From: Ectocarpus siliculosus
Taxonomy: Eukaryota > Sar > Phaeophyceae > Ectocarpales > Ectocarpaceae
Reading direction: 5' to 3'
Length of the DNA: 64,000 nucleotides
Assembly: GCA_000310025.1 (NCBI GenBank)
Contig: FN649743.1
Coordinates: 4,368,702-4,432,701, forward strand
Shown here: positions 30,073 to 53,058 of the stretch, in pieces
Numbering within the stretch: position 1 is the stretch's first letter
Layout: the number at the start of each line of letters is the position of its first letter
Made by a program: the position numbers and the translations under genes
The notes under the pieces: model-generated
The model's database searches: none
What the model was told of the DNA's origin: nothing
The model's input: only the letters and a program-made list of their open reading frames with translations

Positions 30073-33000
30073 CTACATCCCTCCCATGGCGTGGCGTGCC
30101 AAGCGGCGCTTGAGCGGCCCCGCGGCGTTCAGAGCGCTCAGCCCGGCGCTTCTCGCGGCGGCGACGGCGCGGGCGTCCGAGCCGAACAGGCGGTGCAGCA
30201 CGTCTAACGCGCCCATCATCACCAACGCCTCCGTCTTGAGAAAATAAGGGGGGGGGCAGAGGGGGGGGCGAAGGGGCTGGTTAGCTGTCGATTTTCGGCG
30301 GCGCGGTGGAAGCACTGCTGGACAAGGAGCACTGGAGAAGCAGGAGGGGGAGGGCGCTTTGTTCTTGTTTCATCATTGGGGAGGAATTTTGTTCGCAAAC
30401 GTAGCTCTCAATCGCCAAATCACCCGAAGCGTCTAGCGGTGCAGCTACGAACTCGCGGCTTTGCTAGCAGTCCACCCTTGACACCGCACCTCATCCGAGG
30501 CGCACGACCCACAGAAATACGCCCAACATGTAGGCAAAAAAAAACGTTCTCGCTGCAAAAAAAAAAAATCAGGCCAAGTTGCTTCGTACCAAACCCTTCC
30601 TCCCATATTCGCAGCAAATCTCCAACTGTGTTACAAGAACGGTTGCGGCGACGAAGACAAGAGCGGTGGATTAACCCGAGGCTCCTTCCGCACCTTCCGT
30701 TCCTCCTCGTAACGCCCGAGCAACGTCTTGGACCCTACGTCTGTCCCTGACAAGCGCCCTTCCAGCACGGCGCGGGCGAGAGCGTCGGCGTCCGCAATGC
30801 CCAGGTTTAGCCCCTGTCCAGCCATGGGGTGCACCTGTGGTGTCCACACATCGGTGAAGGGGAGGGGCACTAGTGAAAACACATGGAAGTAGTTGGTAGA
30901 CTCGCAACCCTATAAAACCGGGACGGAGCGGCATGTTGGGTTGTCGCCGGCCCAGGCTACGCTTCACAAGGGTGGACCAGAAGGTCGAGGGGAGGGTGGT
31001 ACGTATGATAAAAGGGGCGAGGGATGCCTGCCCGTTCTTTGATGCAGCATCACATTCCGTGCGATGTCAAGACTTAGGGCACGCTTGAGCAAAACACCGT
31101 TGGCCAGAATGGCGGCATTTTCTTAGCGGGACCGGGGGTGGAGGGCTCAGGTCATGGCAACTGGGGCCAGCGGCTTGCGTGCAAGGCCGGTGAAATCTAG
31201 GATTGAGGCGTGTGTGTGTGCCTCCATACAGTGAAAATTGCGATCGTTAAAACGCCCGGCAAAGAATCGTGTAAAAAAACATTTCGCAGAAACACCAGGC
31301 CATTTGCACGAAGGAACAAATGGCAATACCGCAACGCAAACCAGGAAAACAACCAAGGCGACAACAACAACAACAACAACAACATTGACTACGCCGTTGA
31401 CAGCAACAGGAGCGTCAACAGCATAACCAGCAGCAACTAGAAAGCAACACCTCTAGACAAGGCGAGGGCTCTCACCGTGTGAGCCGCATCCCCAACCAGA
31501 GCCATCCGGTCACCGGTGTACTTGTGCGCCTGCCTCAAGGAGAGGTCAAACCCAAGTCGAGGCGTCACTACCTGGAAAAAGACAAAAAAAAAACAGCGCG
31601 AGAGAGAGAAAAAAGGGCATGGCCCACGGAAATGGATCCCGATGAGAAAAGAGAGGGGCACGGCTTGATTAAGGAAACTGATGGCTCGAAAAAAGAGCAC
31701 AGCATCAAACAACGGCACCAGAGAAGAGAACGGCGCACCACAAGAAAAGCACGTAGGAGAGGATAAGAGAGCCCGAGACGACAGTATTGCAACACGGCAG
31801 CTAGACTGCAACCCCACAACGAGCAAATACAAAACAAAAACACCAATTCTTGACAAGAATCAACTACACAGCAATGCCAGCGACTGTGACGACTAGACTA
31901 CGACGACGAAGACCTCTCACCTCAGTGGCTTCAGGCGGGGTACAAAACCCCCCTCTTCCTCCATCCCCTGCCCCCTCCTGCAGGCCGAGCGACAGTCCGG
32001 CCAGAGCCCCGGCGATGCCTTCCGCGCCCTTCGCGACCCCTTCCCCCAGGGCACTCGCTGTCGCGAACGGGAGCGCGGCAAGCGACGAAACGCCTCCGAA
32101 AAGCCCGTGCTCGCCAGCGAAAGGAGGAACCGTTCCGGAGAACGACGCGGGCTCTGCCGACGACGAGGGCGAGGTGCCGATGGTCGGGGGAAGCCTCAAC
32201 GCGTCGTTCACCTCCTTCACGAACTCCGTGGTAGACATCGACTGGAAGGCCGTCGTAGAAAGGATCGGGTAGGGACGGGGGGGGGTTACTATCGCGCTAG
32301 GCAGGCTGGGCAGTGCACAGACGAGGGGGTCTACCCTGTATCCGGCGGGGGTCATACGCCCTGCTCGGGTTGGTTGGCTTGAAGACAGCCAATGTGTGAC
32401 GTCAAGAACGTTCAGTAAAAACTCGCACGCGAAGGTGGTATGATCACAATCACAGAATCATGTGGACACCAAAAGGCAGAACTGCTGCTGGAGCAACAGG
32501 GGCTTCCGATGTCGTGAGGTTTTGCTTTTTCATTCGCAACCTTGTCGCGCTTCTCTCGCTCTAGCAGCAGCATCCCCCACGACGGGTATCGGGGGGGTCA
32601 TCGCTCACGCTACCAACGAGAGTAAACCCAAATTACAGGACGCTAGACGAACACCGGAGGAAGAAGGACGGTTTGAACAGCAGCAGTAGCAGCAGCAGCA
32701 GCAGCAAAATCATCGACAACAACAAAAGCAGCACGTCAGACAAGATGAAACGAGACGAGCAAGTCAAGGACGCCTCCCAACGCCTACCTTTAGGCTCTCT
32801 GCGTGTTCGGGTGTAGTCGACCACACTAGCGACGCCAGCTTTCCCCCCGGGAGGGGAAGCATCGCCAACGGCCCCCTCGACAGGTAGCGCTGAAACGCAA
32901 CCTCACCGTGGGACTCCGCCAGTTTCACCTGACGGGCAGTTTCGGGCGAAGAGCAACAGAAGGAAGCGTCACCCCGGGGGGGGGGGTTGAACTCCAACAG

Positions 33001-34459
33001 TTATCCGACAAAGCACCTGAAGAAGGCCATCCAAGAGCAGGACTGTAGACGAACGTTCGACAGATTTGCTGGTCCGAAGTTACCGAAGAAACAAGACAGT
33101 AACGCCGATGCACAACGCAAAGTACCACAACGCTGGACCAGTCTTGAATTGTTTGCACACGATTGCGCTCTCGCGGCCGTTGAACTAGGTACGCCTGCTT
33201 TCATCGAGTAGACCATCGTCCTCCAAACCCGAGCAGGCCACCACGACCTTGCACCCCAACCTCTCCCCGGCACCAATAAAAACTCTCCCACAGCATACCA
33301 TGTGTGCAATCAACAGTCATATCGGTGATGGATGGCCGTGCCGACTGATGAAAACCAACAGGTGAAGCTGCTGGCTGTGCGCACACAACAAGAAGGTGGT
33401 CCTCGTCCTCGCCAAGGGTTGTCCGTTTTTCATGCTTGGCGGCAGGCCTACCGCCGTAGCGACCAAGCCAAAACACACACCAATGCTCACCGTTGCGACC
33501 ACCGCCCGCTGGCCGTAGCCCCAGCCGAAAGAAGAGAGACCCATCATCTTGGCCACCTGGTTTTCGGGGGGATATGCGCACACCACACATAATCAGAACG
33601 ACGTTATTTTCTGCTTCTCACGGCTCGTTTCATTCTGACGTCGATGCCGACGCCGGGGTCGTTGGCGACAAGTTTATGCCTTCAAACTCTCAAGCTTGGT
33701 CGTTGGGTTGCACGAGGTGGTACGGCGCTTGCCTCGCGATTGAGGGCTGGTGTGGCGCTTGCCTAGAGAGGGAATCGAGTTGCGACTACCGATGCGTCGA
33801 CAGGAAGAAAACCGACACATGTGAAGTATCATGACATGCCACGTGAAAATAAAAAAGGGTGGTTGTGGGAATAACAAAAATAAAAGAAATACTAGCCCAC
33901 GGCTGAAAACGCAAAAAAAACAAACATGCGAATCTCCCTTTGTTGGATTATCCTTCGCCAACCTCCTTGTCTCACAAATATACGCGTGGCCGACAACCAC
34001 GCCTGTTTCTTGCCTTGGAGTCGCCGCCGTCTGCCGCCACCAGCAGCCGGCAGGTGGTGTCACTAGTCTCGCCGCTTGCCGTTTCGACGGTTACTGTCAA
34101 CGGTCCCGTAGCGCCCCCGGCCCCTACCGGGGGGAAGGTGACCCGTTTTACCTGGTCGCGGTAGCACCGGGAGAGAGAGGGGGGGGGGGGCGAGCAAACA
34201 ACGGGGCGGTGGGGATGGCGTAAGCGGTGGAACAACGCGTAGCGAGTGACTGTTGGTCTGGTGCGAGTAAGAGCGGAATGATCTTGGAGCTGGCCGGGGT
34301 TCGTAGATAGTAGCTTGGTTTTGCGCTTGGGTATCAAACGCTTGGTTAACAAGCGCGCACTCAAATCCCACTTGTGTGTTGGTTGTGTCTCTGCCTGCAT
34401 GCCTGCCCGTCTGCCTGTCTGTCTGCCTCTGTTTGTGTGTCTGCCTGTATCTCCGTCTG

Positions 34460-34504
<45 letters not shown>

Positions 34505-35906
34505 GCATCTCTCCCTGCCCCCTTGCGTGAGACGTACACATCCTTGGTTGCTCATTTCGTGACAACTAAAAACACTGCATTACTTCCTCTCGCCTGGGCA
34601 GGACACGTCAGCTCCGCCAACCCGTCAGCCTCGAGCTCCCGCACGCGCTCGAAGAGGGACGAGTGGATAACGCCGTGCTCCGATATGAAACCCAGAGCGG
34701 TCGTCTTTCCCCCTTTCCCCTCCCCGTCGAACCGCAGGTGCCCAGCTCCTCGGTCGTCCCAAACCTTTGCCGTTTCGGGTGCCGTTTCGGGTGCCGTTAC
34801 AGGTGTCAAAGAGTCTCAGGGTTGGGATGGAGATGTACCAGGAGTTGTTGGAAGGAAAAACAGAGTTGTGCGAGAATCGTTGCGATGCGTTTCGACGTCT
34901 CATCTCCAAGCTAATCGAATGAAACAGACTCTCACTTGCATAGAAGAGTTCAACACGTTGTTCGATTGGTGTATCACCTCGGATTATTGACGCTACAATT
35001 ACATTCCTGTAAATGTGTGAATGCTGTCGAAAAGCATATGGCACGCTAAACACACAAAACGCAAATATAACAGTGTGTGTATCTCGAAAAGGTTTCGTAG
35101 AGAGGTAGGTCAACGTTGCCTTTCTGGGGCGTCGCACATTCCTCTGAAATCCCCCCCTCGCCTTTTACGCACGGACGCTGACGTCGTTCTATTGGTCAAC
35201 CGGTTACACAGCGCTGTCGATGTCGACAAACTAAACACTTTAGCGACACACCCCTGAATTTTCGTCACAGAATTATGCACACACACACAAGGATATTCAT
35301 TTGGTCCGCCGGATTCCTAGAGCGCGCTCAACGCACTACAAACGAAAACCACACACACGGGTGGTCCATGCGCGTGTTTGTTTGGCGTGCTTCTCGCCAA
35401 GGGCTAGAGACGCTTGCTGGGCGACGTCCACTTCCCGGAGCTTGGCCCCACACCGCCTTTTACGCGCTGATGCCGACGAACTTGCATACAGCTCAGACAG
35501 ACGATGCTAACCAACACACACGCACAGACACGCACACACCTGCATACCCCCGAACGGCTGCGAGCGGCCCTTTAGCACCCCCCCTCCCTCGTCCCAAACC
35601 CCAAGCTTCCCAAGAATCTCCACGGACGAGGGCGCGAGAGAATAAACCCGGGGGTCCGGGGCACCCCTGGCCAAGGCGGCCTCCAGGGACGGCGGGGGCC
35701 GAGCCTCGATCAGTCCCACCGCTGGCCGCCGCCGCCTTCGCCGCCGGCCGACGTCATTGCCACCACCGTCATCCTTGCCCGTGCTGAGGGGAGGCAAACC
35801 GATCGTCGAGGGGGTGGTAGACGAGAGGTCTTTGGCGAGGCGACACGCCAGGGTGCAGCCTACGATGCCCCCGCCGACCACGAGCACGTCGTGGTCGTAC
35901 TCCCAC
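30073..35906 (-). CDS. COQ6: COQ6-like FAD-dependent ubiquinone biosynthesis monooxygenase, 5' incomplete
   Basis: Predicted mitochondrial flavoprotein hydroxylating the ubiquinone ring (C5 position in COQ6). Exons: 35906-35540, 34764-34594, 34151-34014, 33556-33491, 32928-32788, 32241-31921, 31571-31476, 30834-30694, 30234-30073; all phases agree, giving 533 residues plus an unseen N-terminus. Family signatures occur in order: dinucleotide-binding VLVVGGGIVG, GGMQVWD, LLVAADGGDSK (DG motif), GYGQRAVVATV, FQRYLSRGPLAMLPLPGG, LVWSTTPEHAESL, then GDAAHTVHPMAGQGLNLG (GD motif and FAD ribityl contact), and the C-terminal helix region. The 321-base exon 32241-31921 carries an Ala/Gly/Pro-rich insertion of about 80 residues after FVKEVNDALR. 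The second and third introns are best explained by GC donors at 34593 and 34013. An N-terminal targeting exon lies upstream of 35906 and was not identified. Confidence 0.93.
30885..30970 (-). repeat. R1 fragment in the last COQ6 introns
   Basis: A short diverged match to R1 around ACAAAGCCGGGACGGAGC (here ATAAAACCGGGACGGAGC), inverted relative to the 39-kb copy. It is positioned between COQ6 exons 31571-31476 and 30834-30694. Confidence 0.55.
34455..34505. repeat. (CTGT)n microsatellite in a COQ6 intron
   Basis: About eleven near-perfect CTGT units, flanked by degenerate CTGCCTGT sequence from 34388. The tract lies in the intron between exons 34764-34594 and 34151-34014. A CAA run at about 31365-31385 and a CAG run at about 32680-32706 lie in other COQ6 introns. 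Confidence 0.9.
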
Positions 35907-37827
35907 CTGGAGGATGCCAAGCAGGAGGCCGAAAGGGAGAGGAGTAAATCTCAACCTCATGGAACGATGGGTTTAACGCAACGCTACAGATTCATTACGG
36001 AGCACCACAACCCGCGCGAGCCTTGAGCTGAGCTGAGCTGAGCTGACAATGATAATCGTGCTTGCCTACATAGTTAGCGTCTAGCCTAGCCGGGCGTGTT
36101 CTATTTATAGGCAGTTTCACCGCCATGTTGGTCGAGACAGGGCCTAGGTACGGTAGCGATCCGGCCGATTTCACTGACACTATAGCGGGCAACCCGCATT
36201 ATTCAGAACATGAAACAACCGAATATTTCATTTGTGCCAGATTATTTCGATGGCATTACACAGGGGAACCGGCGTTATTCGACCGGCGTTATAGCGGAAC
36301 CATTCCACTGTATTCTAAGGAGGCGTAGGTTGCGGGTGATGCGCATCGCTCTCTTTCGTCTGCATGGTTTCGTCGGCGTTTTCGACTCACGGACGATGTG
36401 TTGTAGGATGCTACTACATGTAGTCCATAGTTTTGAGCATGTGTCATGCGCCGTTAGACTCGGCGTAAAGACCGACCAATCGCAATGCCCTCACTGATTT
36501 CACATATATGCTGCCGAATGAACAGTTCCGTTTTGACTTTGAAACGACGGGTTCCATGTAAGGAAAAACAAACACACGCGCAGAAAGACTACCCATTCGA
36601 GATACAAAATACAAAATACCCACCGCAGTCGAACGCGATGTGTTGGAGTCTCTTCTCTTCAGTGAGTGGAGGAAAACCTGGACTTATTTCTAGTCTTTTC
36701 CGTGTTCTTGGAGACTTACCTCGATTGTTCGCAGAGCAGCGACTATAAACGACTCAAGCACCGCCATATCCACGGCTGGTGCACATGCCAACCTGTCTGC
36801 TCTTGTGTACCTTGGTATTTTGTACTACTGTACTGTACCACACGCATGTACAGCAGTCTGCAGCAGTGCATAGCAAGCAAAGCTCTGGTGGGCCAACAGC
36901 AATCCATGCTGCCGCGCCGGTGATACTTCAACTATTCAAAAGGCACTCGGCCGTTGCATTGCAGTGCTCTCGAATTCCATCATGCATGCTTACCTCTGTC
37001 GCGGACAGCATACAGCAGTAAAACTACATACTCGTAGGAGTAGGAGTGCAAGCAGTGACTACCGACGTACAGCGGTTGACCGTACAGCAGTGGATTTGGG
37101 ATGAGACGATGGAGATGGCACACACTGAATGCTGTACCTGTAGACAAAATTGCTATGCATATATATAGAAATATGTCAACCCGGATCTCCAGGCAGTGGG
37201 CGTGGGTGCGCTATCCAGTCACCTCAACTACTGCTGTGCACGACAGTAAATGCGGACTCTCACCCGGCCGCCTTATCTCCCAGTCCTGCGGGAGCACTGG
37301 AAAATGCTCTGTGACTCCGGAGCCTCGTCATGTTCCTAGAAGCTGCAACCCGGGAATGCCTCCATGCCATACCGGAGCCCAGCATCTCTCCCTGGACGTC
37401 TAATCCTGTCGAAAATCTGTGTGGTCCTGTGTCTAATGTCCTGTGTCTACTACTGTACGACTCTCGGTTGTGCAGCAGGTGTTCAGGTTGTGCAGTGTGT
37501 GCTGCGCCCTGCCCACAGCAACAACATGTGAGCCCCCGGGCAGAGCCCAGTTGCGTCACCCCCATGTTCCGATTTATTGTCATCCTGTTCCTCCCTCTCG
37601 CGCATTTGTGTGCGATCTTTTGTCTACTGCTACCTCCCGACACCTTGCTCCAGCTTGGAGCTCCGCCACGCACGAGCCTCCAGCTATCGGTGAGGTACGA
37701 TTTCACGCATGGTGGTTGCGTAGATGCGAGGCGTTTGGGTGTGAGGCAACTGCAGCTTGCTGCAGAAGTGCAGTAAGCATGTGGTGCCTGTGAAAGGAAA
37801 AGGGAGATGGTTGAAGAATACTTTCAA

Positions 37828-37886: not shown

Positions 37887-39429
37887 GCTGCTGCTTCTTC
37901 TGTATGGCCACACGCGAAGAGTCCAATGGTAGGCGGCGTGCGTACTTGTCACCCAGGCTTGTGTCCTGCCTCTGCCAGCAGGAGTAGATGCACGATACGG
38001 CCCTTCGAGCAACAGGAAGGAAAACCAGTCGCCCAGAAAGAATCTTATAGAGGCACGCGGCGGAATAGCCCTCACACACGAGTTCTCTTGTGCGGCCTAC
38101 ATAGACTATGATATTGTTGTAGCTGAACTTCCTTATTGTTCGCTGTCGAGGTTGTACTCATCTATGCATGCATCTGATGGTTTTTCCCTGCTGGCTGTGA
38201 GCCCCGCGTCGCTGAACGAGGCGTCTAGGTGATGCCAGGCGCTGCACAGCTCTTCCGTTCCCCGGGGATCGGAACATGATCGGACCATGACATCTTGCTG
38301 TTTAGAAAATCTCTCTCTCTGTGACGTACGAAGAGAAACCACAGCAGAACAGGAACGAAAGGACGGCAAACTCGCAAATTCAATTTGAGCTTCTCTCGCT
38401 CCATCTTTCTCTCGGAGCGGAGCTGGAGGCAATGGTTTGTGTCGTCCCCCCCCCCCCCAGAGTTCACACCGGTAGGCAAAGAATGTATCAGCGGTTCCTC
38501 TGCGGTGCTTTACCTGCAGAGTTGTGGAGGCATCTTGTATATCCAGCGTTGCATGTGCGGCGTGGGATACACTCGACTCCCGTTTCCTGCCCGAGAGACT
38601 TCGATCGACACTCGTCCGTGTGTGGTCTGCTAATTCGCGTTTTGGTTCAACGTAATATCGGCTTTTGCTCCTCTGCTGATGCTGTTTTCTTACTCGAGTT
38701 CGTTCCGCCTTGTGACGGATGTACTTGCTGGCATTTAGCACATATTTCTCATGTTATTCAATAATTCAAGGTAGTTGTGGTTTTGCTTTCAGAATGAAGT
38801 TGGAGTACGTCGTACCCCGAGCCGTGCCTCTGTTCACTCGATGAACGTTTTCTCCGATGTCTCTGATGGAGTATGCCCACATTTTCTTGTCGGGGGCATG
38901 CACGCTACAGCAGCATTCATTCATGCAAGCGGGGGAAACAGGGGTTCGGCGGTCCCTCTAAGTCCTTTCGTAGATGCACGACCTCGCTGCGGCGATGGAC
39001 GCGCCTGTGCACGTATTGCTGCCGGCCACCTCATTTATTGGTGACGCTGAATACGCACGATATCTTGCAACCATGAACGGCCCGAGAGCTGCGGCAAATG
39101 TGGCATTGGCATGTTTCCAGAAATACTATCTGCATGTTTCCATATGGAGAGTGAGCATAATTTTTGCCGCTCGCCACCAAGCGGTATACTGCATGCCGTA
39201 GATCGAGGTCATGGAACCGCACGGGCGAGGGAATAACAATCTAAGAGCACACGATGTGCACCGGACGACTCCCGCACCGGCCCTTTCTCAAAATAACAGC
39301 ACGTGAACCAGGCAACTGACACCTGCCCCCCCCCCCGGTGTTTGCCATCGGGATTGGGTTTTCGTCGCTTGGCAACGACGTTGTAAAACAAGCCAATTCA
39401 CTTCGTGAACTCGGCAACCAGGTTACCGT

Positions 39430-39870
39430 TTTTTTTTTTTCCCTCGTTTTTTTTTTGGCGGTAGCCATAATGGTGGTCGAGTAGATCATGTTGTGCGGGG
39501 TCGAGAAACCTCACTCCGCGCAACGGGGGATGATCGCACCACGTTGTGTTAAAATGGTCAAGCATCCTCGAGGCAGCTACACAGTGCTTACAACTGTCTC
39601 TGGAAGTGAAAGCACCAGAAAATAAATTAAGTCATACGTAGCTGTCATCCGTACGCAAGGAAGTAAGCACAAGATGCCGAACACCCTTAGCAGGATGCAG
39701 CTCACCCTTCATGCGACTCGCCAAATACCTCACGGCGCTTCGCGCTTGGTGATGTGAGAGCCTGGTCCGGTGAGAACCCGGCGTGCTCCGTCCCGGCTTT
39801 GTAGGGATGCGAGGTCAATGGCCAAACGACTACGGCATGCACGACTATGAGTACACCCCCCCTACCCCCC
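39430..39870 (+). repeat. Dispersed repeat R1, long copy
   Basis: Aligns along its length, in the same orientation, with 46350-46790: T-rich start, GGTCGAGTAGATCATG, GGAAGTGAAAGCACCAGAAA, AATAAATTAAGTCAT, CACAAGATGCCGA, GGTGATGTGAGAGCCTGGTC, ending in a C-rich tract. Shorter copies lie at 3124-3335 (-), 30885-30970 (-) and 44025-44110 (+). No coding capacity is recognised. Confidence 0.85.
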
Positions 39871-40019
39871 CCCTCGAATTACCTGACGTGGAAATCGGTA
39901 GGGCCCCAGACAGCCCCCCCACCAGCATTGGTGAGTGAGCGTGCGCGCTAAACGCACGCGCAGGCGGGGGCTTTGAAGATGATGTACCTTGTGTTCCTTG
40001 CGTTCCTCTACAAGTTGCA

Positions 40020-40119
40020 NNNNNNNNNNNNNNNNNNNNNNNNNNNNNNNNNNNNNNNNNNNNNNNNNNNNNNNNNNNNNNNNNNNNNNNNNNNNNNNNN
40101 NNNNNNNNNNNNNNNNNNN
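40020..40119. other. Assembly gap of exactly 100 N
   Basis: Exactly 100 N characters, the conventional placeholder for a scaffold gap of unknown size. The flanks contain the inverted repeat described at 39337-40213, which probably caused the break. Confidence 0.99.
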
Positions 40120-40909
40120 TAACCTGGTTGCCGAGTTCACGAAGTGAATTGGCTTGTTTTACAACGTCGTTGCCAAGCGACGAAAACCCAACCCCGATGG
40201 CAAACACCGAGGGGGGGGCGGGGGGGGCACTGCTTAAAAGATCCTTGCGAAGCTTTCGGCAGCATCGGCAAAAATGGAAGACGCGAAGCCATATGAAATG
40301 AAATGGGACAGGGCATGCCTTACTTTTCCCATTATCTCCGAGAGTAGACCTACCTGTGCGCTTCGTCTCTACCGCGGTGCATTAGGTCTGACATAGCCAA
40401 GTGGGTTGCCGTTTTTCCGCACGTTTGCTGACTCTTCATTAACGGCGTTGCCAATTTGCCGTCCACATTGGTTGGTTTGTTTTCTTCGGGGGGGAGGGCT
40501 GGGAGGCTAGACACGACCTTGTATCCTAGCGATGTTTCACAGCACTCGTCTAACCAAATTGGCTTGGCCGAGATCGGTCAGACTTGCCCCTTTGTTCCAG
40601 TCAAACATTTCCACTATACGCGCCTTCTTGTGCATCACGTTCCAAATATTAATGTTTTCCCCTGTGTCCTCCTTTTCCCCCATATGCGTGTCCTAGTCTC
40701 TCTACATTGCCTCACTCCCTCCAATGGCGGCGTCTCATCCTTTTCGACAACAAATGACCTCGACCTCCCAGCTCCGAAGCTGTCTTTCTCCCATTTCCCC
40801 GCCCAGCGATCACCCCCCCCCCCCCCCCCACCGCCTTTCTCCGCTGCTTGAAACGACCATGGTGGTTTCACACTACGCTGTGCCGCTGTCTTGTCCTAAC
40901 CCGTAAAGC

Positions 40910-42140
40910 ATGCGGTGGCGGGGTACGTCAGCGACGGTGCCGCTAGCGACGTTTCAGCTCCCGGGGAGCCCGCGGCCGCCGCCCCCGGGCGACAAGTCCA
41001 GGGCTCTCGCCGGCCTAGGCCTGTCCGCGTCCAAGGGCGGGGGAACTTTCTCCGGATCCTACCAACGGCTGCCGTCGTGGGGGGGCGACGACGAAGAGGT
41101 TGGCGGTGGCGGCGGCGGCGGCGGCGGCGGGAGCGATGGTGGCGACGTTCCTCGTTCGTTGTCCATCAACAGCGACGGCGGCGGGTTCGGGGCCGGTACT
41201 AGGTCGCTCTCGGTCAACAGCGATGCCGCGGCTACAGCTCGTTCGACGGAGCGTGAGTATGTATAGATCGGACGTTTACAGGGTAATTATCCGAGCATAT
41301 CGGTATGTATGGATGTATGGATGAGAGAAAAAACGTGAGTCTATCGAACGTTGAAAAAATCCGAGCGTACGGGCATATGTGGTGGATGCATGGGCGTATG
41401 GGCGAAAGAGAAAATTGTGAGTCTGTCGAATGTTTCCAAATATATCCAAGCGTAAAAGTACGTATTGGCGTGTGGGTGTATGGACGAAAGAGAAGAACGT
41501 GAGTCTATCGAACTTTACCAATAGAATCTAAGCTTACCGGTACGTATGGACGTATGTTGGATACATGTGAAGACGAAAGAGAAGGAGGCAAGACGGACAG
41601 GCGGATTGATCTTGGTTCGCGTACACGCTCACGCCACCCCCTGCCGGCCGCAATACGGTGGCGATGTCGCGACCTACCGTATTTTCTACTTCGCAGCAGC
41701 AGACCAACATCACGACGAAAATACCGGGCGCTGGCCCCTGACAGTCCGCAAATCGTACCCCCTTGGCTGGTATCAGAACCTACTCAGAACGTGAGCAGCA
41801 ACCCCGGCGCCTTAGGGCGACGCAGGCCTTTCCATGACGTCGTTTTCCTTTTCGTTTGTTTCGCCTGATGGCGGCAAGCAGTGGGTCCCGCCATCAAGCG
41901 CCGTGCCCCGGGGAAAACGAGCCGAGGCCTGGGAGCATCGGGGGGGAGGGGTTCCGGGGGGCACAGCTGGTTCCTCTCGGCCAAAGACCGGCAGGTCTTG
42001 AAGCGGCGGACTATCCTTTCCAGGATCACCCCGATCGTTCTCCTGTCGAGCTTCGTCGGAGACCTCGACCTCATCACCGACTGGACGTTCCTGAAGTATG
42101 GTTTGGCCGGGCAGGGGTAAGTGGCAGCAGCAGCAGCAAT

Positions 42141-42179
<39 letters not shown>

Positions 42180-45100
42180 AACGACGATGACCACAACTTG
42201 CAAGTGGGGGGGGTTACTCCTACTGTGTACTGCAATGTCCTGTACCATTTACGTCTGCAGTTTTTTTTTGTTTTTTTTGGCGCACGAAGAAATTTTCGGT
42301 GCAAATGTCTCGGAACACTATCGCCTGGAAAGTTGTCATGACGGGGCGATCCGATCCGCCTTCGATGTCAGCTACCCAAAGCACCTTGAACACACGGGTG
42401 CCCCATGGCTTCACCCACGAGTGTGCAAGGCGCTACAGAACGACCCCGCGCTCAAGAACCCAGGAGTTAAGACATTGAGCGAAAAAAAAGAAAACAAAAT
42501 TTTGAACTTGAGCTGCACCATTTGTGAGCTCGGTTAAGAACTGGCGACCATTCGTAGCATGCCCCGTAGGAACCAAGAACCCCTACACTTAAAACCTATA
42601 TTGCGGCCATTCGTAGCATGACCCTAGGAAAACAGTAAGAACCCACCCCAGCCTCAGCCAACACTATTAATAGCGAGTCTTAACTGCGGGCGCGTTCTGT
42701 TATTTCAGCGGAGGAGAGGCCATCCTTGGGCGGACGTTTGGTGCTCTCTGAGAAAACTTGCGGGGAGAATACAATGGTTGAAGGACGCCTGCAAAGGTGT
42801 GGTGCTTGGAAGCGTCGAGAAGAGTGGGGGGCGGGATTTTTTGTCGCTACATGCGCCTCGCGTTTTTTGGTTGTTTGGTGCAGGTTCTTGATCCGCAAGC
42901 TGGCGCTGTTCTTCGCGATCGTCGGGACTGTCATGTGGGCCCTATCCACGACCGAGTTCTCGCTCATGAGCAAGCTCAAGAACATGTGGAAGGTGCGGCA
43001 CAATTTGTTTCTCAATGTTTTTTTCCAACATCCAAAATCAAGTACCAGTATGATGAAATCTATGCTTGCGCCAGTTGCACATCAAGTTGGGCAATATTTT
43101 TACCCAGGCTGGAGGCATTGGTGTTCCCTCTCCAAAGTTCGCGAACCAAAGGGGCTGTCGTGCGAAAGGTTACAAGCAACCGCACGCACTTGCGTATGCT
43201 GCGCAAGGTTGTCCTCAAAATAGCGTTTTTCGGAGCCGTCTTGGACGACCGGCTTGCCACAGTGTCGTCGTCCCTCTTTGTTGTGCCATACTTTTGTCGT
43301 CGTGACCCCCCCCCCCCCCCTTTCCAATGCCTACATCCACCCAACCCCAGTTCGCTGAAAACCCCCAGCACCCCCACCTCAGGTACTGTAGCCCGTCTCT
43401 GTCCTCGTCCCTCAGCAAGCCCTAATTAAATAAGTACGCCCCCCCCCCCTATGAGCAGGGCAACCCCCTGAGCAGGCTCCAGCACGTGGGTCTCGGGTGG
43501 CAGCTCCTGGCCAACGTGTTCCTCGAGGACGTGCCACAGTTCATCATCACCGTCATCACCCGCCCCACCTCGGTCACCGGCGTGCTCAACCTCTGCGCTT
43601 CCGGCCTCTCCCTGTGCGCCAAGATCGTCCACGGCTACTCCAGCCAGAGGGCCCCCTCCCTGTCTACGCAATTCAAGATGATCGACCAGGACCCCGCCGT
43701 CACGCGGAACCTGTTCAAGCTCAGGTGAGGGAGGGGGGCGCCGTCGTTTGCGATGCGGGTATGTAACATAGTGCCCAATGGGATACGCACGCAGCACACC
43801 TTTTTATTTGCTGTTGCGGGGGGGGGGACTTCGCGTACCTACGATATCGTGAGTCCCATCGATGCCGTTCTGTCCTAATTCCATGTCGAACACAGAGCCA
43901 CACCTCCGTGGGCGAACGGCCCAAAAATGTTTCTCGTGGTTCACGCGTATCCTACGGGGAGAGATGCAAGGTCCATGTGGTGCCCCGCCCCCCCCAACCT
44001 CCCAGCTTGTGGTTCATCCTTGTGCAAAGCAGCCTGGACCAGTGAAAACCCGGCACATCGTTCCGTCCCGGCATTGTAGGGATGCGAGGTCAATGGTCTG
44101 ACGGCTGCGGCATGCGTTTACATAAGTAACCCCCCCCCCCCCATTTTCGCTGGTCTTCCTTTGGTACATGCTTTTGTATTATGGAGGACACCTCGTCATT
44201 CGTCTGTTGACTGTTTTTTTCCCGTCTGAACCCCTCCAGGGATGAGGCTAAGAAGAAGGCCAAGGCAGCGGAGAAACTGGTCTACCTCGCTTGGGCCAAC
44301 AGGTGAGTCGCCGGGGGCGGTTTTTTGCCGGACGGGGGGGGAGTTTTTGTTATCTCCGGTGTTTCGGGAGGTTGACGACGCAGGCACCGTCTCGTTCAAG
44401 TTGAGGAGGCGTGAATCTCGGTGGGGGCGACGGGGATGTGGTGAAGAAGCAATCCATGATGGTGTACCGTGGAGGGCGGGGGTCGTTGGACTCTCAGGCG
44501 CATCACAAGGCTGTCACACACGGACGGATGGAGAGAAAGGGCAAGGGCTCGTCAGGGGTCGGTCGATTTGGTCTTGCCGCGGAGGCACCTATCGCAGTGT
44601 GCCATGTGTCTCCTTCTAAGCGAGAGAGAGAGAGAAACACACACAGACAGTCAGACAGACAGACAGACAGGCAGAAAGACAGGCAGAAAGACAGGCAGAC
44701 AGACAGGCAGACAGGCAGACAGGCAGACAGACAGACAGGCAGACAGAGATAGAGGTAGAGGAGAGACAGACAGACAGACAGACCGAGACTCGGATACTGG
44801 TTTTCTGGCTTGCGATCCGGGAGCAATCGGACCAACAGATGCTTCGGGAAGAACAACAAGACATGGTAATTGAGGCTTACAGAGCGGGGGCGGGTACTCG
44901 AATGCTCTACGTGCGCGCAATACGGATCCAACCTAGATCTTTGAAGTCGATACCGCGGTGGCATCCGAGTGATCCGCCGTTCTTCTCCGGTTGTGTGCGC
45001 ACGTTTTTGTTTCAAGACAACCCCTTTGAATCCCAGCCCTGGGCACTGGTGGACACGTCGCCTCTTTTGGTCCTCCCTCCCTCCCCCGTGCCGCACGCGC

Positions 45101-48100
45101 TTTGGTCGAAATTCTGTCTTGGTTGTCTGGCTTTTCTTGGGGAGAAGACGTTTTTCCTACGGCGTTACGACAATGAAGTTCTATCTCCATGGTATGGGAG
45201 TTCTTTGGAAGTTTCCGGGTGTTCAGTGTTAGGACCGCGAATGCATCATCATTATCTCTTCGGGAACAAGCATTGCTGGCGGGGTCCGGGCGCCGACCCC
45301 GCCAGTAGGATGGTCCCCCTGCACGACACAGGCAGGTTTTCGCTCCACAAAACTAATCGTACAAGTATCGACATCGAAACCTACGACAAGCATCGTTACA
45401 CCGAACAACACCCGCAGCATCACCACAAGAACCAGATCCTCACTTCGGGACATCCACACGACAACACCCACCTGACCGATCGTCGTGCTTTTTTTTCGGC
45501 GTCCCTTTTTTGGTGTTGCGTTGTGGTTACGTCCTTGTGTCACCCCCTTGCTTCTGGTGTTGGCGTTTTTTTACCGTTGCAGGTGCTCGACCGGGGAGCA
45601 GAAGGCGGCGGCGGTGTTCCAGGTCCTCCAGATGGACCCCACCTTCGTGGGCGGAGACCTGGAGTACATGAGGGCCGATCTCTTCTCGGGATCAAGGCTT
45701 TACATCACGGCAAGCAGCCTCACTGGTAAGCGGAGGGGGGGGGGAGGTTTAGATCGCCGCATGCTAAAGGGGCCTTCGCATCACCGCATGCGGCCTCACA
45801 GGCAGACGGGGGGGGCTGTTTATCACTGCATGCAGCCTTACAGGTAGAGTGGGCTTTAGATCACCGCATGCGGCCTCACATGTAGGCCTTCGAATCACTG
45901 CATGCGGCCTTACAGGTAGAGGCGGCGGCTTTTGATCACCCCATGCGGCGTCACAGGTAGATTTTTTTTTTACATCGGTGCATCGCCTCACAAGCATAGG
46001 GGGGGGCTGTATATCACCGCATGCAATCTCACAGGGTAGAGGAGGGTAGAGGAGGGGGGAAACACACATTGAACCAAACTTTGTCACTTGAAAAGACATT
46101 TCAATTCATGTTGACTGTACCAACATGCTTCCGATATCGTGTTTTCCGACGCGTGGTATGTATGCGTGCCGATCAAGTCACCCGGCGTCATCCTGTGTCT
46201 TGTAATGCATGAAAACCCTTGAATATTTCCCGGTTCCACGCGATACTTCGGAGGCTGGCGCCATGCCTCGGCGGCCTGAATAACACTCTTCCGTGCATGC
46301 TCTTCGTCGACCCGCTTGAACGCGAGACCACCGTCACTATTGTTCCCCCCGGCCTCCGTTTTTTTTTTTTGCGGTAACCCTAATGGTAGTCGAGTAGATC
46401 ATGTTTTGCGGGGTCGAAAACCCTCACTCCGCACAAAGGGGATAATCACACCACGTTGTGTTAAGTTAGTCAAGCACCCTCGCGGCAGTTACACCGTGCT
46501 TGTAACTGTCTCTGGAAGTGAAAGCACCAGAAAATAAATTAAGTCATTCGCAGCTGTCCTCCGTAAGCAAGGAAGTAAGCACAAGATGCCGAGCACCCTT
46601 AGCAGGATTCAGCGCATCCTCCATGCGACTCGCCAAATACCTCACGGTGCTTCGCGCTTGGTGATGTGAGAGCCTGGTCCGGTGAAAAACCGGCGTGCTC
46701 CGTCCCGGCTTTGTGGGGGTGCGAGGTGAATGGTCCAACGACTACAGCTTGCACGGCTATGAGTACACCCCCCCCCCCATACACACACCTACCTTCGTGA
46801 CGTCCCCTCCCGGGGCCCCAGATCATGGCCTTTAGAAGAAGTCTCCGTTTTTTAGCCACGCTGAGGCTGTCGTCATTTCGTTGATCAGCAGAATAGCGCC
46901 TTCGGTACTAACGATACAGGCTCACGCAAACAACTGGTCGGCCAAATGTCAGCGTGTTGTTGTCGGCCGAACCTTGATATTCTGGTTCTAGCCCAACATC
47001 CCCTCGCTCCCATGAACGAACCTTCGTGATCATGCCTCGTTCGTTTGCAAACCCCGTCGCGCTCAGGGCCCATTCCGTCGCAGGTCGGCGACATGACCAT
47101 TCTGCGGGCGGTGGTCTTGTCCGGCAACCAACTGTCAGGTATGCACAACTTGTTTTTTTTATTGCGACCGTAAGTTGTCGCAGGAACCTCCTCCTTCTCC
47201 CGCGCAGCTTTGAAAGATTCGTCCTCCGTGACGCCCACGGGGCCTGTGTGGTGTACGTCCTCCGTTCAACTTCCCAATAGGGAACTGCTAATGCCATTGA
47301 AAACAAGATTTATCGTTTTTTCAGCAGATATGTTCGAAACGGTTCGAAGTGTTCGAGTGCGTTGCGGGGCTGCACCCGCGTGTGCTAACAAAACTCTGAT
47401 TCTCCTGTGTCCCTATCTCTGTGTTCCTGCGTCTGTCTATCTGTCTGTCTGTCTGTCTGTCTATCTATGTGCATGCTTGTGGCGTTGTGGCCTTCTCTCA
47501 CCCCCGTATGCTCCAAGGCTGCATCCCCACCGAACTCGGAAAGCTCGTCAACCTCAAGGAGCTAAATTTGAGTGAGAACACCCTCAGCGGTGAGTGCGTC
47601 CATCCCTTCGATCGGATACCGGCACGCTAAGCGTCCGCAAGAGCGTTGGCTGCGAAGCAACGGCTACTCCGAGCAAGTACTAGTACCGTATCTTGATCGA
47701 GCAATACTGATCTCTCCTTGCGACCCTGAACACTCTGTATCAAGTGTGTGTCGTAGGTCCGAAAAAGGAAATGCTCTCCAGTCTGCGAACCCCCTTGAGA
47801 GGCGACCGGCGGCGTGTCGAGAGCGGGCGGCAGGACCTTCTTGATCTCATATTCGGAGTAATACAAAGACAATGTTATCGTTTTGAGACCGTCAGGCTGC
47901 GGTCGCCTCGCGAGAAGCATCCTCAAGTGACCCCGAACGAGATGAGATAGATGACAACAAAGCGCCCCACTTGGTAGGGTAGTTGGGTGTTCACAGAGCC
48001 TCTTCGATTTTACGGTTTCTACGCCGTTGGTTCCAGTTTCGTTCAAGGAAAAACGTTTTCGCGGGTACACTTCGAAACGTCCTTGTCTCCGAGATGTAAT

Positions 48101-51100
48101 GCCTTCTTGTGCGTCTGGTACTGCGAACGGTTTGAGGCTGTAGGGCAGTCGTCATCCCCTGTGAGCCCCGCCCCTCTAAATGGCGACGGCGAACAGCGCG
48201 ACCAAGAGCGACGTAGCCATAACAGAGGGTCAAATCGGGACAAAAACACGCGAGCACGCTTTGTAATCCGCTGGCTCATCCGACAGGAGGGTTGCGGCAT
48301 GGATTGGACAACAGGGGTCGAGTCTTGCGAAAGGAGCAGTCACAACAGTACGATCGCGCATCAATCCTGCTGTCCCGGGACCATTCTTAAAGAAGCCTCT
48401 CTCCTTCGTCGCTTTGCTCCATCCGGCTCGTCACTAGCTTTGGCGCACACCTTCGTTCCCTGCAGTTCATTTTTATTCGTTCTGAACCTTTCACCCCACT
48501 TTGCTGCTGCTCTAATGGTTGCATTTTTTCCCGATATGTGCGTGTGTGTGTTGTTGGCGTATATTGCAGGTCCAATCCCTGTGGAGCTTACGAAACTCGG
48601 GGCGCTCATGGTCCTGAATCTGTCTACCAACGCTCTCACCGGTAAGCGAGTATTGTAGTTGCAGGCTTCCCTTTTTACTTTTGTTTTGGAAGCTGCTCCT
48701 GTTGTGTAGTCTTTTGCGGATTGTTCTCTCTGCGGTCGACGAAGGCTGGCCATCAGCCGCGTTGCTTTCGAAGGCCGACAGTTACGCTTTCCTCGATAAG
48801 GTTACCGCGGCCTTGTTTCGCGGGTTTTCCAACGACACGTGTTCGAGCGCACGTGCCCACCACCCAAAACTACGTCCTGTGGGAACGATTGCCCCGTCCT
48901 CTCGAGGACGGGCTGTCACTGATCTAACCGCGTAGGCACGCAAAACATGAGCACACCACGACCCCGAACTGCACAAAGAAATTCTTACTTCCTTCTTCCT
49001 TCGCCGCAGGGTCTATCCCGGCGGGACTGTCGGATCTGCAGCTGCTGACCACACTCATGCTCGCGAAGAACCGGCTTACCGGTGAGTGCAGGTTCCGCGC
49101 GGTGATATGGTGCCTGCCGTGGTGGAAAAGTCGTTGTTTGGGAGCGTTCGCTTGGGTGTGGTCGTGGTCGTGTGAACTTGCACGGGTAGTTAGGGTGTTG
49201 TGGAGAACCGGATGGGTGGTCCTTTTTGGTCGTCGGTTCCGGTCGACATCGTGTGGCAGCAGCTGCGCCCTACCGCGCGTTCGAGTCGACGCGTGAAGCG
49301 TTCACTCCATGGGTGGCAGCGCTTGACGGAGTTGATGCTGATCGACGTTGCCACCAAGGCCGATGTTTTCGCCTTTCGAAGAACGCGGCCCGGCATGATT
49401 GGAACGGACTGAGATGTCGAGGTTGGGGATTGTGTGAAGTGATGCCTACCGCTGCTCGGTGTTTTGGGGGTCTCGGCTGTGTTCGTTTTTTCCCGCTGGC
49501 TCTACGACATGAGCTGCAGAAAATGGGATACAACGCAAGGGACGAGACAGAGAGCGGAAACTACATACTTGTACCTCGCAATTCTCTCTCTACAAGGTCG
49601 AACATAGCACGATGGCTGAGCGCTCTGACGCGATGCGAGGATGGTGAACTACAGATCCATGCTGCTGATGTGTTTCTGTTCATTTGTTTTTCCTGCTTCC
49701 CCCAAAGGGGAAATCCCTTGCGAGCTGGGCGGTCTCCCGGCCCTTCAGAAACTGGACCTCAGCCAAAACCAGCTCACCGGTAAGCAGGATGGCGCCTCGC
49801 CTTTTTTGTTTTTTCTTTCGCCTGTACAGTAGGAACCTTGGGTGGCCATTGACGGATCCATGAAGACATATGTTATTTCCCGGTGGAATGTGTAGCCGCC
49901 GAAAAGGGTGAAGACGGGAAGTAGACCTGACGCCGGGATAGTGGTGACACAGCCGCACGACAAAACGGAGAGGTGTGCCTTCCGCTATAACCAACCGCTT
50001 GAGGGTCTCAACCGTTACACACTTGCTGCCTTGGGGCACAAAAGACGAGAATATCGTCTTTGTCGCTTGTTCTGCCGTCATCACACCTCGCCTCGAACCC
50101 CGTAGCCAACTCGTGGGCGAGGATAAATGTTTTTTCCCTTCTTTTTTCGTCTGCCTACGGCTACACAACCACGCCCGGAGCCCGCGGCTCCGTGGCTTGG
50201 TAGTCGATATAATCATTTTGCAGAGGACCCTTGTGGTTGTTGCCGTTGTTGCCGTCGTCGTTGTTGTCCTTGTCATTGCTGCAAAAAAAATGACAGCTTT
50301 TTTTGTGACGTTCGTTACCTTCAACCAACCTTGCGCCGTGGGTGTTGATCAGCCCTCACCTTGGAGACCGTTCAGAAGCCTTACGGGAAACGTAGACTTT
50401 TGTAGGGTGTGAGCCAGCCCCTCGTTGGCCACATAAGTCTCAAAAGAGTTGCCGATACACGACGAAGTCCCGTCACTGACTTTTTTTTTTCTCGTCTTCC
50501 TCCAAGGTCGGGGCGGGTTGTTTTCACCGCTCCTCACAACCTCTCCCGGACCCACCTCCGCCCAGCTACCTTCCCAGCTTGAACCCCAGCTGCATTCCCA
50601 GTGTCACCCTACCCCATGCTCTTGAAGGCTCCACATCCGTGACCCATGGCCGTCGCTGTCTCAAGTTAGCGAATTTTTCGACCTCTGCTGCGCTTTTCTT
50701 AGTTTACTCCGCATCCGTCATCTCGAACGAAGTCAGCTCCGCCTACCGGTAGGATTCTAACAATATATCGTGCTGGTGGAACTCCGCGCCTCCCCGCAGA
50801 GTTCGGGGTAAAATGTGGGGACAACGGTAGCCCACGACCGAACGATGATGGCATAAACCCTTGCTTGATTAACATGAACCGCCTTGCCCAATCTTCGGGG
50901 GGGGGGGGAGGGGGGCGCACTCGGACCTCCAACAGCATACCCCTCACAAACACCTATCCCGCTTGTCCCCAAAGTCTATCCGTAGTTGCTTTGTCGCTTC
51001 TAGATTGTCCCGCCCACCCAGTTCCCAACATGTTATTGAGTTCCTCAGTAGGTGGATGAAACACCCACTGCGTAGTCGCACACGGAGGACAACCTCTCAG

Positions 51101-52808
51101 GAAGACCGTATTGTAGTAGGCGCTCGGCTATTGGTTGTTGTTGGCGGTCACCTTGGTATGGTGTTGCACCCTGGAGAATGGGATGGATGTCTATCGCTCG
51201 GTCTTGGAGTGGAAAATGGTGAATTGATTGCTTATCGGAGAAAAAGGGGATGGCTAGTGCGCAGTCTTGCACTAAAAAAAGAGTGAAATCATGGCCAATT
51301 TTCGGAGAACGTGATGTATGTCTATCGCTCGGTCTTACAGTGGAAAATAGTGAAATGATGATCACATCTCGGAGAACGGGGTGGATGTCTATCGCTCAGT
51401 CTTACAGAAGAAAAAGAGTGAGATGCCCGTGTCTGCCATTTGTCGGATTTATGGTTGGCCAGGCCCCATCCCGGAAGAGCTTGGGGAGGGGCTCAGCAAC
51501 CTCCAATCGATGTCCGTCGGGAAGAACAAGCTCACAGGTAGGAGAGACTGTGAGACGGGAAATCTTTGGTGTCCATTGAAATCAGAGAGAACATCGCTGG
51601 GATGGCGTGCGGGGGATACGTAAGTTGTACAAACTCGTCTTTGTCCTCCGTGAGGCTGCTGCTGTAGTCGTGTGCTCTGGATGTTTTTGGTTGGTTCTTC
51701 CGGTGGAGGAACAACAAATTACTGTAGAAGGATTCTTCCTCCGTTCTTTCTTCTCTCCCTTCCGTTTTCTCTCCCTTCCCTTTTCTCTTCCTCCGTTTTT
51801 TTTTTCTCTTTTTTCCTTTTTCCTCCTTCTTTCTGACTGTTTCGTGCATTTCTCTCGCGTACTAACATAAGATACCACAGCCCCTGGACTGATTTGCAGC
51901 GCTCGATTACTCCTCGACCAAGAGGATGCCGAAGGCAAACGATATGTGTTCGGAAAGCTCTCGAACCGACGGTTCCAAATGCGCCGTTTTCGGCACCGTT
52001 ACTGTTTTCGTTGCCGAGTAATCAAGCTTTGAAAATCTGTCCAGGGGTCGTGATATCTTATGCAACTTACTGCATCGCTTTCAAAATGCTCCTTTCGCTC
52101 TCTACATCATTCCTTAATTCTTGTCTATGATCCCCGCCGCCCCCCCTCCATACCCTGCACCGCTTTGTCCTGTTGGCTTCTCTGTCGATTTCCGCACTTG
52201 TGTCTGCACCTGGCTGCCTTGAACCTTGTTTTTTTCGTTTGTTGCTCTGAACTGAACGACGTGTAGGCAGCGTCCCTGAGTCCCTGCGGAGTCTTTCCCA
52301 GCTCAAGTCACTGGTCGTTGCGAGCAACATGCTTACTGGTGAGGGTCACGGGTCATTCTGTCTGTCGCCAAGATCGGGCCGGAGCTGTTTGTATCTTTTA
52401 TCTTGACGAGCCAGAATACGTTGATTGTGGCCACCAAACACTCGGTTGTAGGGGAGTGCGCTGCGGCAGTGTTTGTTGCTTTCAGCCTGTGCATCGTTTC
52501 TTACGCATTTGATGGTGCCTTTGCGGGACGTTGTGGTACGTTGTGTTGCTTCAATGCTGCTAAACGTTTCTCGAAAGCGATTTGCCAACAGCACAGCACT
52601 CCCCACCGGCGGATACCCCCCTTTCTTTCTCGATGCTATCGTCAACGGCAATGCTACATAGTGGCATCACTATTGACTCGAGATAAATCCCACGGTGATT
52701 TTTGTGAGTTGTACGAATCATTGATGCTCGGAACTAGGTTTGTTTTTGTCTTTTCTCGGTCTTCTCCTGGTGCAGATCCCCATTCGCACAATGCTAATCT
52801 TTGTGGTG

Positions 52809-52868
<60 letters not shown>

Positions 52869-53058
52869 CGTACTGGTTTTCGATGGCATGGCAGGCGCGA
52901 AAGAGGCCGAGGCGGATCTCAAGCCCGACCTGCACCCCGAGTGCGTCACCGACTTCCTTCCTCAAGAAGAACCGGAAGAGGAGGAGGAAGAAGAAGAAGA
53001 AGAAGAAGAGCTTCCGGAGGAAGTCGAAGGCGAGCTGGAAACCGATCTCATGGTATAA
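40910..53058 (+). CDS. Polytopic membrane protein with seven exon-encoded leucine-rich repeats
   Basis: Fourteen exons in perfect phase give 609 residues: 40910-41252, 41882-42116, 42884-42992, 43459-43724, 44240-44302, 45583-45725, seven LRR exons (47067-47138, 47518-47589, 48570-48641, 49010-49081, 49708-49779, 51463-51537, 52267-52338) and 52895-53058. The N-terminus is Gly/Ser-rich without a signal peptide. Hydrophobic segments follow around TPIVLLSSFVGDLDLITDW, RKLALFFAIVGTVMWALS, and LANVFLEDVPQFIITVITRP with its neighbour; the D-x-x-TDW and EDVPQ motifs recall XK-related membrane proteins, a weak resemblance. The LRRs follow GxIPxxLxxLxxLxxLxLSxNxLT, the plant-receptor type. The last exon encodes an acidic tail with a Glu run. 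LRRs lie C-terminal to the membrane region, the reverse of plant LRR receptors, and are probably cytosolic unless topology inverts. No kinase, GTPase or NB-ARC domain is present. Possible role in recognition or scaffolding (inference). Confidence 0.87.
41251..41580 (+). repeat. Tandem ~82-base array starting at the exon 1 5' splice site
   Basis: Four units begin near 41251, 41332, 41414 and 41496. The first contains the real donor (GAGC/GTGAGTATG); the others begin AACGTGAGTC, ATTGTGAGTC and AACGTGAGTC and share a GTATGGACGAAAGAGAA-like end. Each unit therefore carries a consensus-like 5' splice site. Confidence 0.8.
42120..42190. repeat. AGC/AAC trinucleotide tract just inside intron 2 of the LRR gene
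   Basis: An interrupted (AGC)n tract, degenerating into AAC, lies immediately downstream of the donor at 42117. It is not coding in the exon frame. Confidence 0.8.
44025..44110 (+). repeat. R1 fragment in LRR gene intron 4
   Basis: Diverged match to R1: CCTGGACCAGTGAAAACCCG, then GTCCCGGCATTGTAGGGATG, then GAGGTCAATGGTCTGACGG. Same orientation as the 39-kb and 46-kb copies. Confidence 0.7.
44638..44790. repeat. (CAGA)n microsatellite in LRR gene intron 5
   Basis: Long imperfect CAGA/CAGG tetranucleotide array on the plus strand with a short interruption near 44750. It lies between exons 44240-44302 and 45583-45725. Confidence 0.9.
45704..46045 (+). repeat. Tandem array seeded from the exon 6 end and its 5' splice site
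   Basis: About eight to nine units of 27-45 bases start near 45704, 45753, 45780, 45822, 45860, 45894, 45935, 45974 and 46013. The first is the exon end itself (ATCACGGCAAGCAGCCTCACTG/GTAAGC). Later units read ATCACCGCATGCGGCCTCAC followed by AGGTAGA or similar, so most carry a G/GTAG donor-like site at the equivalent place. Confidence 0.85.
46350..46790 (+). repeat. Dispersed repeat R1, long copy in LRR gene intron 6
   Basis: Near full-length relative of 39430-39870 in the same orientation, sharing the T-run/GCGGTA start, the GGAAGTGAAAGCACCAGAAA segment and the C-run end. It lies between exon 45583-45725 and the first LRR exon at 47067. Confidence 0.85.
46805..46860 (+). repeat. R4 terminus next to R1
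   Basis: Contains GGGGCCCCAGATCATGGCCT, then TTAGAAGAA, matching 8925-8975 directly and 53262-53315 in inverse orientation. Confidence 0.65.
48865..48960 (+). repeat. Solo copy of retroelement tail R3 in an LRR intron
   Basis: Reads CTGTGGGAACGATTGCCCCG, TCCTCTCGAGGACG, GATCTAACCGC, AAAACATGAG. It matches the tails of the tandem retroelement copies at 57895-57995 and 58745-58835. Confidence 0.75.
51173..51437 (+). repeat. Tandem ~66-base array upstream of the sixth LRR exon
   Basis: Four units begin GGAGAATGGG, GGAGAAAAAG, GGAGAACGTG and GGAGAACGGG. Three contain GTCTATCGCTC and two of these continue to GTCTTACAG, an acceptor-like end. The last unit finishes about 25 bases before the true acceptor at 51462. 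Confidence 0.8.
51866..52062. mobile_element. MITE-like inverted-repeat element in an LRR intron
   Basis: Left arm CATAAGATACCACAGCCCCT continuing to GATTACTC, and right arm its approximate reverse complement ending CGTGATATCTTATG. The arms are about 47 bases at roughly 80-85 percent identity by eye, around a core of about 100 bases. No coding capacity. It lies between the sixth and seventh LRR exons. Confidence 0.75.
52807..52869. repeat. (TGCC)15 microsatellite 26 bases upstream of the last LRR-gene exon
   Basis: A perfect tetranucleotide run on the plus strand. It sits where the polypyrimidine tract/branch region of the final acceptor (52894) should be, so its length could affect splicing of the acidic-tail exon. 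Confidence 0.9.

Follow-up and report, generated by a model that had tools for sequence, protein, structure and literature searches.

The window, a stretch of 64,000 nucleotides from Ectocarpus siliculosus, carries a nuclear gene of a family with three members found in this genome, which probably encodes a membrane-tethered sensor. In the protein, an N-terminal domain of roughly four helices would be joined by a linker to a C-terminal solenoid of seven leucine-rich repeats (LRRs) that most likely lies in the cytosol. The family is best described as joining a known LRR cassette to a membrane domain that fits no classified family; the same arrangement is known from a channel that is apparently unrelated.

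Gene structure and paralogues

Rebuilding the locus from the sequence gave 14 exons on the plus strand at 40910-53058, with sizes of 343, 235, 109, 266, 63, 143, 72, 72, 72, 72, 72, 75, 72 and 164 nt in order. This is the same model as the one proposed by an earlier, sequence-only reading of the locus, which had reported 609 residues without a phase conflict. All 13 introns are GT-AG, no join conflicts in phase, and splicing yields an open frame of 609 codons that ends with the stop at 53058 (Table 1).

The genome (189 Mb, 492 contigs) was searched with the membrane part of the protein. The eight matches comprise five in the window gene itself, two paralogues on C13 (C13a and C13b) and one at chance level (C5:1683334, E 2.3). 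Searches with each paralogue returned the same three genes and one extra match each on C458 and C489, with E values of 9.8 and 0.27, which were likewise rejected as chance. In both paralogues the membrane domain is followed downstream by 72-nt phase-1 LRR exons, in the same order as in the window gene. The gene had been regarded as an unusual chimera; by these searches it is one of three with the same domain order, and more distant members could escape detection. The claim that a membrane part and then plant-type LRRs belong to one gene is borne out by the joins of the model and by the two paralogues. The number of repeats varies between members: seven in the window gene, six in C13a, and eight in C13b plus a ninth LRR exon of 81 nt counted by eye.

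Table 1. Features of the window gene and its paralogues (window positions unless a contig is named)
Feature	Position	Strand	Basis or remark
Assembly gap of 100 N, inside or adjoining the candidate first exon	40020..40119		Sequence
Probable true first exon, MMYLVFLAFLYKL..., cut by the assembly gap	39979..40019	+	First ATG after in-frame stop 39949
Exon 1 of the sequence-only reading: low-complexity Gly/Ser-rich N-terminal region	40910..41252	+	Open frame, GT donor
Exon 2: basic stretch and putative TM1	41882..42116	+	Rebuilt model, paralogue alignment, codon-position identity
Motif DLDLITDW (D[LI]D[LV]x[TA]DW), putative TM1	42061..42084	+	D, D, D and W invariant in 3/3
Exon 3: putative TM2	42884..42992	+	Rebuilt model, paralogue alignment, hydropathy
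Exon 4: putative TM3 and TM4	43459..43724	+	51% amino acid identity with C13a over 89 codons
Motif FLEDVPQF (ED[VIL]PQ), putative TM3	43517..43541	+	E, D, P and Q invariant in 3/3
Exon 5: basic linker, least conserved	44240..44302	+	29% amino acid identity over 21 codons
Exon 6: linker leading into the LRRs	45583..45725	+	C13a-conserved FQV.Q.DP.F..G.L.Y.R..L
LRR exon 1, 72 nt, phase 1	47067..47138	+	Rebuilt model, exon finder
LRR exon 2, 72 nt	47518..47589	+	Rebuilt model, exon finder
LRR exon 3, 72 nt	48570..48641	+	Rebuilt model, exon finder
LRR exon 4, 72 nt	49010..49081	+	Rebuilt model, exon finder
LRR exon 5, 72 nt	49708..49779	+	Rebuilt model, exon finder
LRR exon 6, 75 nt	51463..51537	+	Rebuilt model, exon finder
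LRR exon 7, 72 nt, GSVP	52267..52338	+	Rebuilt model, exon finder
Terminal exon with a cap-like LHPEC motif, a poly-Glu tail and the stop	52895..53058	+	Rebuilt model
Paralogue C13a	C13:3080181-3080897	Same as own LRR exons	44% identity, then 6 LRR exons
Paralogue C13b	C13:3044093-3044638	Same as own LRR exons	31% identity, then 8 LRR exons (finder)

The paralogues also bear on the splicing of the window gene. The membrane region of C13a and C13b is a single uninterrupted exon in each, and window exons 2-6 align along it, which supports joins 2 to 6. Judged by eye, the step from the membrane exon of C13a to its first LRR exon requires a GC-AG intron. Behind the final LRR exon, C13a ends in LFPNCEI... 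and a stop, similar by eye to the LHPEC exon of the window gene; no tail exon was found downstream in C13b. Identity at codon positions 1, 2 and 3 between the window gene (C18) and C13a is 0.54, 0.70 and 0.46 over 230 codons, a good fit to coding constraint. The corresponding values for C13b (0.45, 0.51 and 0.41 over 221 codons) fit it weakly. Within the C13a comparison, exon 5 alone is weaker (0.52, 0.48 and 0.38 over 21 codons). At the level of sequence comparison, the window locus is confirmed as a real split gene.

The sequence-only reading let the gene begin with its exon 1 at 40910; a likelier first exon starts at 39979. The frame of exon 1 has an in-frame stop at 40904, an AG ends just before 40909, and no counterpart of the exon was seen in C13a or C13b; we think that it may instead serve inside the gene as an internal exon, or as an alternative start. 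Both paralogues begin with MLRL[AL]YLA[CF]LY at their first in-frame ATG, and the start at 39979, MMYLVFLAFLYKL, matches a paralogue start in 7 of 11 residues (6 of 11 at the next best place in the window). A start pattern built from the window gene and C13b matches only those two starts in the genome, by construction, and five places in the reversed control, so that it is not rare enough to prove anything alone. Unlikely by chance is rather the placement of the candidate, on the correct strand and 931 bases upstream of the formerly proposed first exon, which is suggestive, not proof. The N-terminus of the window gene is thus probably incomplete, the candidate first exon running into the N's at 40020-40119. 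The surroundings of the gap are repetitive. A dispersed repeat of about 420 bases has copies at 39442-39862, upstream of the gap, and at 46353-46774 (90% identical), and an inverted pair of 99 bases (39327-39425 and 40120-40218, 98%) has its second arm directly after the gap.

LRR exons as one-repeat cassettes

The seven LRR exons of the window gene all run from phase 1 to phase 1, six of them with 72 nt and one with 75 nt. An exon finder seeded with 19 repeats (6 from the window gene, 7 from C13b and 6 from C13a) recovered all seven on the correct strand. Six of the seven were seeds, so their recovery is by construction, and the evidence lies in the false-positive rate: none in 294 kb of reversed sequence and one in total over 50 dinucleotide shuffles of the window. 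The earlier description of seven GxIP repeats is right in number, with six repeats beginning xIP and one SVP. Taken singly, the six 72-nt LRRs of the window gene reach at best 39 to 61% identity with any other LRR of the family, so recent exon copying is not seen. Repeats of this kind are common in the genome, since a search with the window LRRs gave at least 42 matches among 150 scored candidates. Because each LRR exon is a one-repeat, 72-nt, phase-1 cassette, the LRR number could be altered by exon gain, loss or skipping with the membrane part retained.

In the spliced protein, Pfam families LRR_1 (71.8 bits) and LRR_8 (72.6 bits) score above the curated cut-off, and no other Pfam domain was matched, neither a kinase nor a ROC-COR tandem. 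The scan lists LRR families only, in agreement with the earlier statement that kinase, ROCO and NB-ARC modules are absent. In the PDB, the best matches of the window LRRs are ectodomains of plant LRR receptors, FLS2 and MIK2 first, with GSO1. The window protein therefore shares its LRR sequence type with plant LRR receptor kinases and receptor-like proteins but differs from them in the lack of a kinase match, in its several putative helices and in the N-terminal position of the membrane part.

The closest parallel in exon structure is with the LRR-ROCO genes of brown algae, as described in the relevant passages of PMC11378527. There, each LRR is a 72-bp exon in which nucleotides 3-71 encode 23 residues, a phase named phase 2 by those authors; brown-algal ROCOs are said to occur solely in the order LRR-ROC-COR, LRRs and nothing else make up most of 15 further LRR-exon sequences of S. 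japonica, and the LRR-ROCO genes are proposed as candidate immune receptors. The window LRR exons share the 72-nt length and the split codon (PMC11378527), whereas ROC and COR are absent from the Pfam scan of the spliced protein. A search of the genome for the COR domain gave one match, at 35.5 bits against a cut-off of 35.3.

The membrane domain and XK-related proteins

Two motifs mark the membrane domain (Table 1). Degenerate patterns built from the three members, D[h]D[h][h]xDW and hhhED[h]PQ[h], match these members by construction, so the result is the absence of further matches: nothing else was found in 189 Mb, and reversed controls gave 0. At E<=10 the domain has no Pfam match in the three members save BAGE in one of them (E 2.5), which was rejected as chance-level. 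A PDB search with the family profile gave seven matches at E<=10, the best to parvalbumin (0.024), all judged to be chance; a single membrane sequence gave none.

Hydropathy suggests about four putative helices before the LRRs of the window protein. The peaks are modest, helices 3 and 4 overlap, and the threshold used is missed by helix 1 in C13a and by helix 3 in C13b. The membrane region had been called polytopic; hydropathy peaks are indeed present, but they are the sole basis of that description and do not separate the spans cleanly. Basic (K/R) against acidic (D/E) residues of the window protein number 11:1 in the 40 residues before TM1, 1:2 between TM1 and TM2, 4:1 between TM2 and TM3 and 12:6 over the 60 residues that follow the final helix. 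This pattern most likely places both termini inside, with cytosolic LRRs, rather than the outward LRRs implied by the earlier label 'receptor-like'. The picture is less clear for the paralogues, which both carry a net acidic flank behind the final helix, and together with the modest, overlapping or sub-threshold peaks this keeps helix number and topology from being firm.

The motifs invite comparison with XK-related (XKR) proteins. In the portions of PMC8298096 that deal with the fold, XKR9 has four helices per half, an acidic cluster on TM1 and TM3 that is conserved in the family, a kink in TM3 at a PQL motif that is also conserved, and loops that are short on the outer side and longer on the inner. 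The window domain similarly has acidic residues in putative helix 1 and an acidic residue before x-PQ in putative helix 3. XKR proteins, however, consist of two four-helix halves, while the window domain corresponds by hydropathy to about one, and a second half is not seen.

Loci with Pfam-level XK-related domains occur elsewhere in the same genome. A search with PF09815 gave 17 matches, and five loci (C477, C476, C30, C8 and C16) lie above the cut-off, alone or with their neighbours; the 14 control genomes gave 0, but the one control named in these searches is an archaeon, so the set may say little about eukaryotes. All three long frames scanned (C477, C476 and C8) match PF09815, with a best E of 8e-16. 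At all of these loci but C30, LRR exons of 72 nt precede the XK domain on its own strand (6 at C477, 4 at C476, 12 at C8 and 6 at C16), the twelve at C8 possibly belonging to several genes. None were found in 20 kb at C30, nor at four of the five weaker loci (C28, C30b, C361 and C206; the fifth is C6). By eye, the XK exon of C477, C476, C8 and C16 starts with part of an LRR (L018, L019, L021, L024). The genome thus appears to combine this type of LRR cassette with XKR domains as well, there with the LRRs first, whereas the window gene has its LRRs last. A PDB search with an XKR profile of three sequences gave one match, the XK-related protein 7p14 (E 0.088), and one with a single algal XKR sequence gave none at E<=1. 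In viral contigs, pattern searches covering both the membrane-first and the XKR family matched 75 and 53 stretches, none of which was confirmed as a relative. We found no description of an LRR-XKR family or a membrane-first LRR family in the open-access literature searched, where the sole paper combining XK-related proteins, an alga and LRRs is a review on efferocytosis.

Two of these regions have features of their own. C8:1155001-1175000 (L032, L033) holds 12 minus-strand and 4 plus-strand LRR exon matches in 20 kb, several of them near-alike, perhaps a recently duplicated array. At C28:803225-804892 on the minus strand (L038), a long frame contains weak PF09815 matches below the cut-off (E 0.005 and 3.7); by eye it also has a stretch rich in proline and an earlier hydrophobic span.

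Given these parallels, the membrane domain of the window family could be a diverged N-terminal half of an XKR scramblase that moves lipids between leaflets when the LRRs bind. The acidic residues of helix 1 and the ED.PQ of helix 3 parallel the acidic cluster and PQL kink described for XKR9 (PMC8298096), and Pfam-level XK-related loci of this genome carry the same type of LRR exon upstream, with part of an LRR at the head of their XK exon by eye. Formal comparisons do not show this homology. PF09815 matches none of the three members at E<=10 (program filters remove most matches above about 0.1), and the members are not among the matches listed in the genome search at that threshold (12 candidates scored). 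Comparison of the window family with XKR by hhalign (alignments of 3 and 3 sequences) gave a probability of 0.3. HMM scores of the three members are 4.5, -1.1 and -1.3 bits, values reached by 8 of 819, 549 of 900 and 495 of 857 scored hydropathy-preserving shuffles (1000 made for each). In the other direction the real score was reached by 63 of 878, 42 of 866, 139 of 850 and 148 of 858 shuffles. The profile alignment scored 24.25. Among 1000 permutations of each kind, 18 class-preserving and 24 free ones scored at least as high, and the controls gave 24.08 (reversed profile) and 20.67 (other XKR half). As none of these tests is convincing, the domain is not filed as XKR. The resemblance of EDVPQ and D-x-x-TDW to XK-related proteins, pointed out before, is good at the level of motifs but not convincing in the Pfam, hhalign, HMM and profile tests. 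With no second XKR half seen in the window protein either, the scramblase explanation is tentative and somewhat unlikely.

Channel, anchor and sensor

LRRC8 proteins, the volume-regulated anion channels of vertebrates, have a Pannexin-like membrane domain. In the architectural account of PMC9130832, these channels have four N-terminal helices, structured outer loops, an intracellular linker and C-terminal LRRs, and the N-terminal helix of LRRC8D enters the pore. The window gene shares the order of helices, linker and C-terminal LRRs, four being an interpretation of hydropathy. It had been stated that no described family is known with this combination; the order is in fact that of the animal LRRC8 channels, the kind of family that the earlier reading had named as evidence against its own proposal, yet the membrane domain is unmatched in Pfam. 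An LRRC8-like ion or osmolyte channel, with a multi-subunit pore formed by the four-helix domain and gated by cytosolic LRRs, would explain the shared order (PMC9130832) and the hydrophobic stretch that recurs at the starts of the proteins, comparable to the pore-entering helix of LRRC8D (PMC9130832). Such a channel is nevertheless unlikely. The membrane domain has no detectable sequence relation to LRRC8, matching no Pfam family and having no LRRC8 entry among the seven PDB profile matches at E<=10, and on account of the former the gene is not filed as LRRC8. Only 18 residues separate the first two hydropathy peaks of the window protein, a short first loop that leaves no room for the outer loops of LRRC8, and its plant-type repeats and one-repeat exons differ as well.

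The membrane part might instead be a mere anchor, with the LRRs acting as adaptor or scaffold for some other protein, for example a ROCO GTPase. This would suit the lack of a catalytic domain in the Pfam scan of the spliced protein, and the acidic tail and basic linker are suited to protein contacts. We consider it doubtful, since the acidic residues of the putative helices are invariant in all three members, which exceeds what an anchor needs. That the membrane and LRR exons are two genes, or that the locus is a pseudogene, is very improbable: the model is predicted from genomic sequence and has an assembly gap and repeats beside its 5' end, but the same order on the same strand recurs at three loci, the joined frame has no stop and codon positions are biased.

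For the membrane-tethered sensor that we favour, we infer a simple sequence of events. The LRR solenoid would bind a protein or other ligand; on binding, the membrane domain would change its assembly or its state and relay the signal, acting as pore, lipid pathway or scaffold. It is conceivable, if decidedly improbable, that two families separately joined the ROCO-type LRR cassette to acidic, PQ-kinked membrane modules and that both are LRR-gated lipid scramblases. If so, they would form a receptor class that exposes surface lipids on ligand recognition and stands apart from signalling by kinases, NB-ARC or ROCO proteins.

Little is known of the immune receptors of brown algae, which are multicellular; in the part of PMC3268121 concerned with receptors, only 2 LRR receptor kinases are counted in Ectocarpus. 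The genes described here would represent a second use of the ROCO-type LRR exon, with multi-helix membrane domains and in two opposite orders. If expressed, they would widen the set of candidate receptors and point to a signal that the membrane domain itself passes on.

Elsewhere in the window, all on the minus strand, a reading frame at 9090-10247 matches an FtsJ-like methyltransferase (E 7e-16), and an uninterrupted hydrophobic frame of 591 codons at 22507-24282, without a Pfam match, shows about three similar segments by eye. Putative exons of an FAD-dependent monooxygenase lie at about 30000-36000, with a GGGIVG-type motif near 35880 (by eye).
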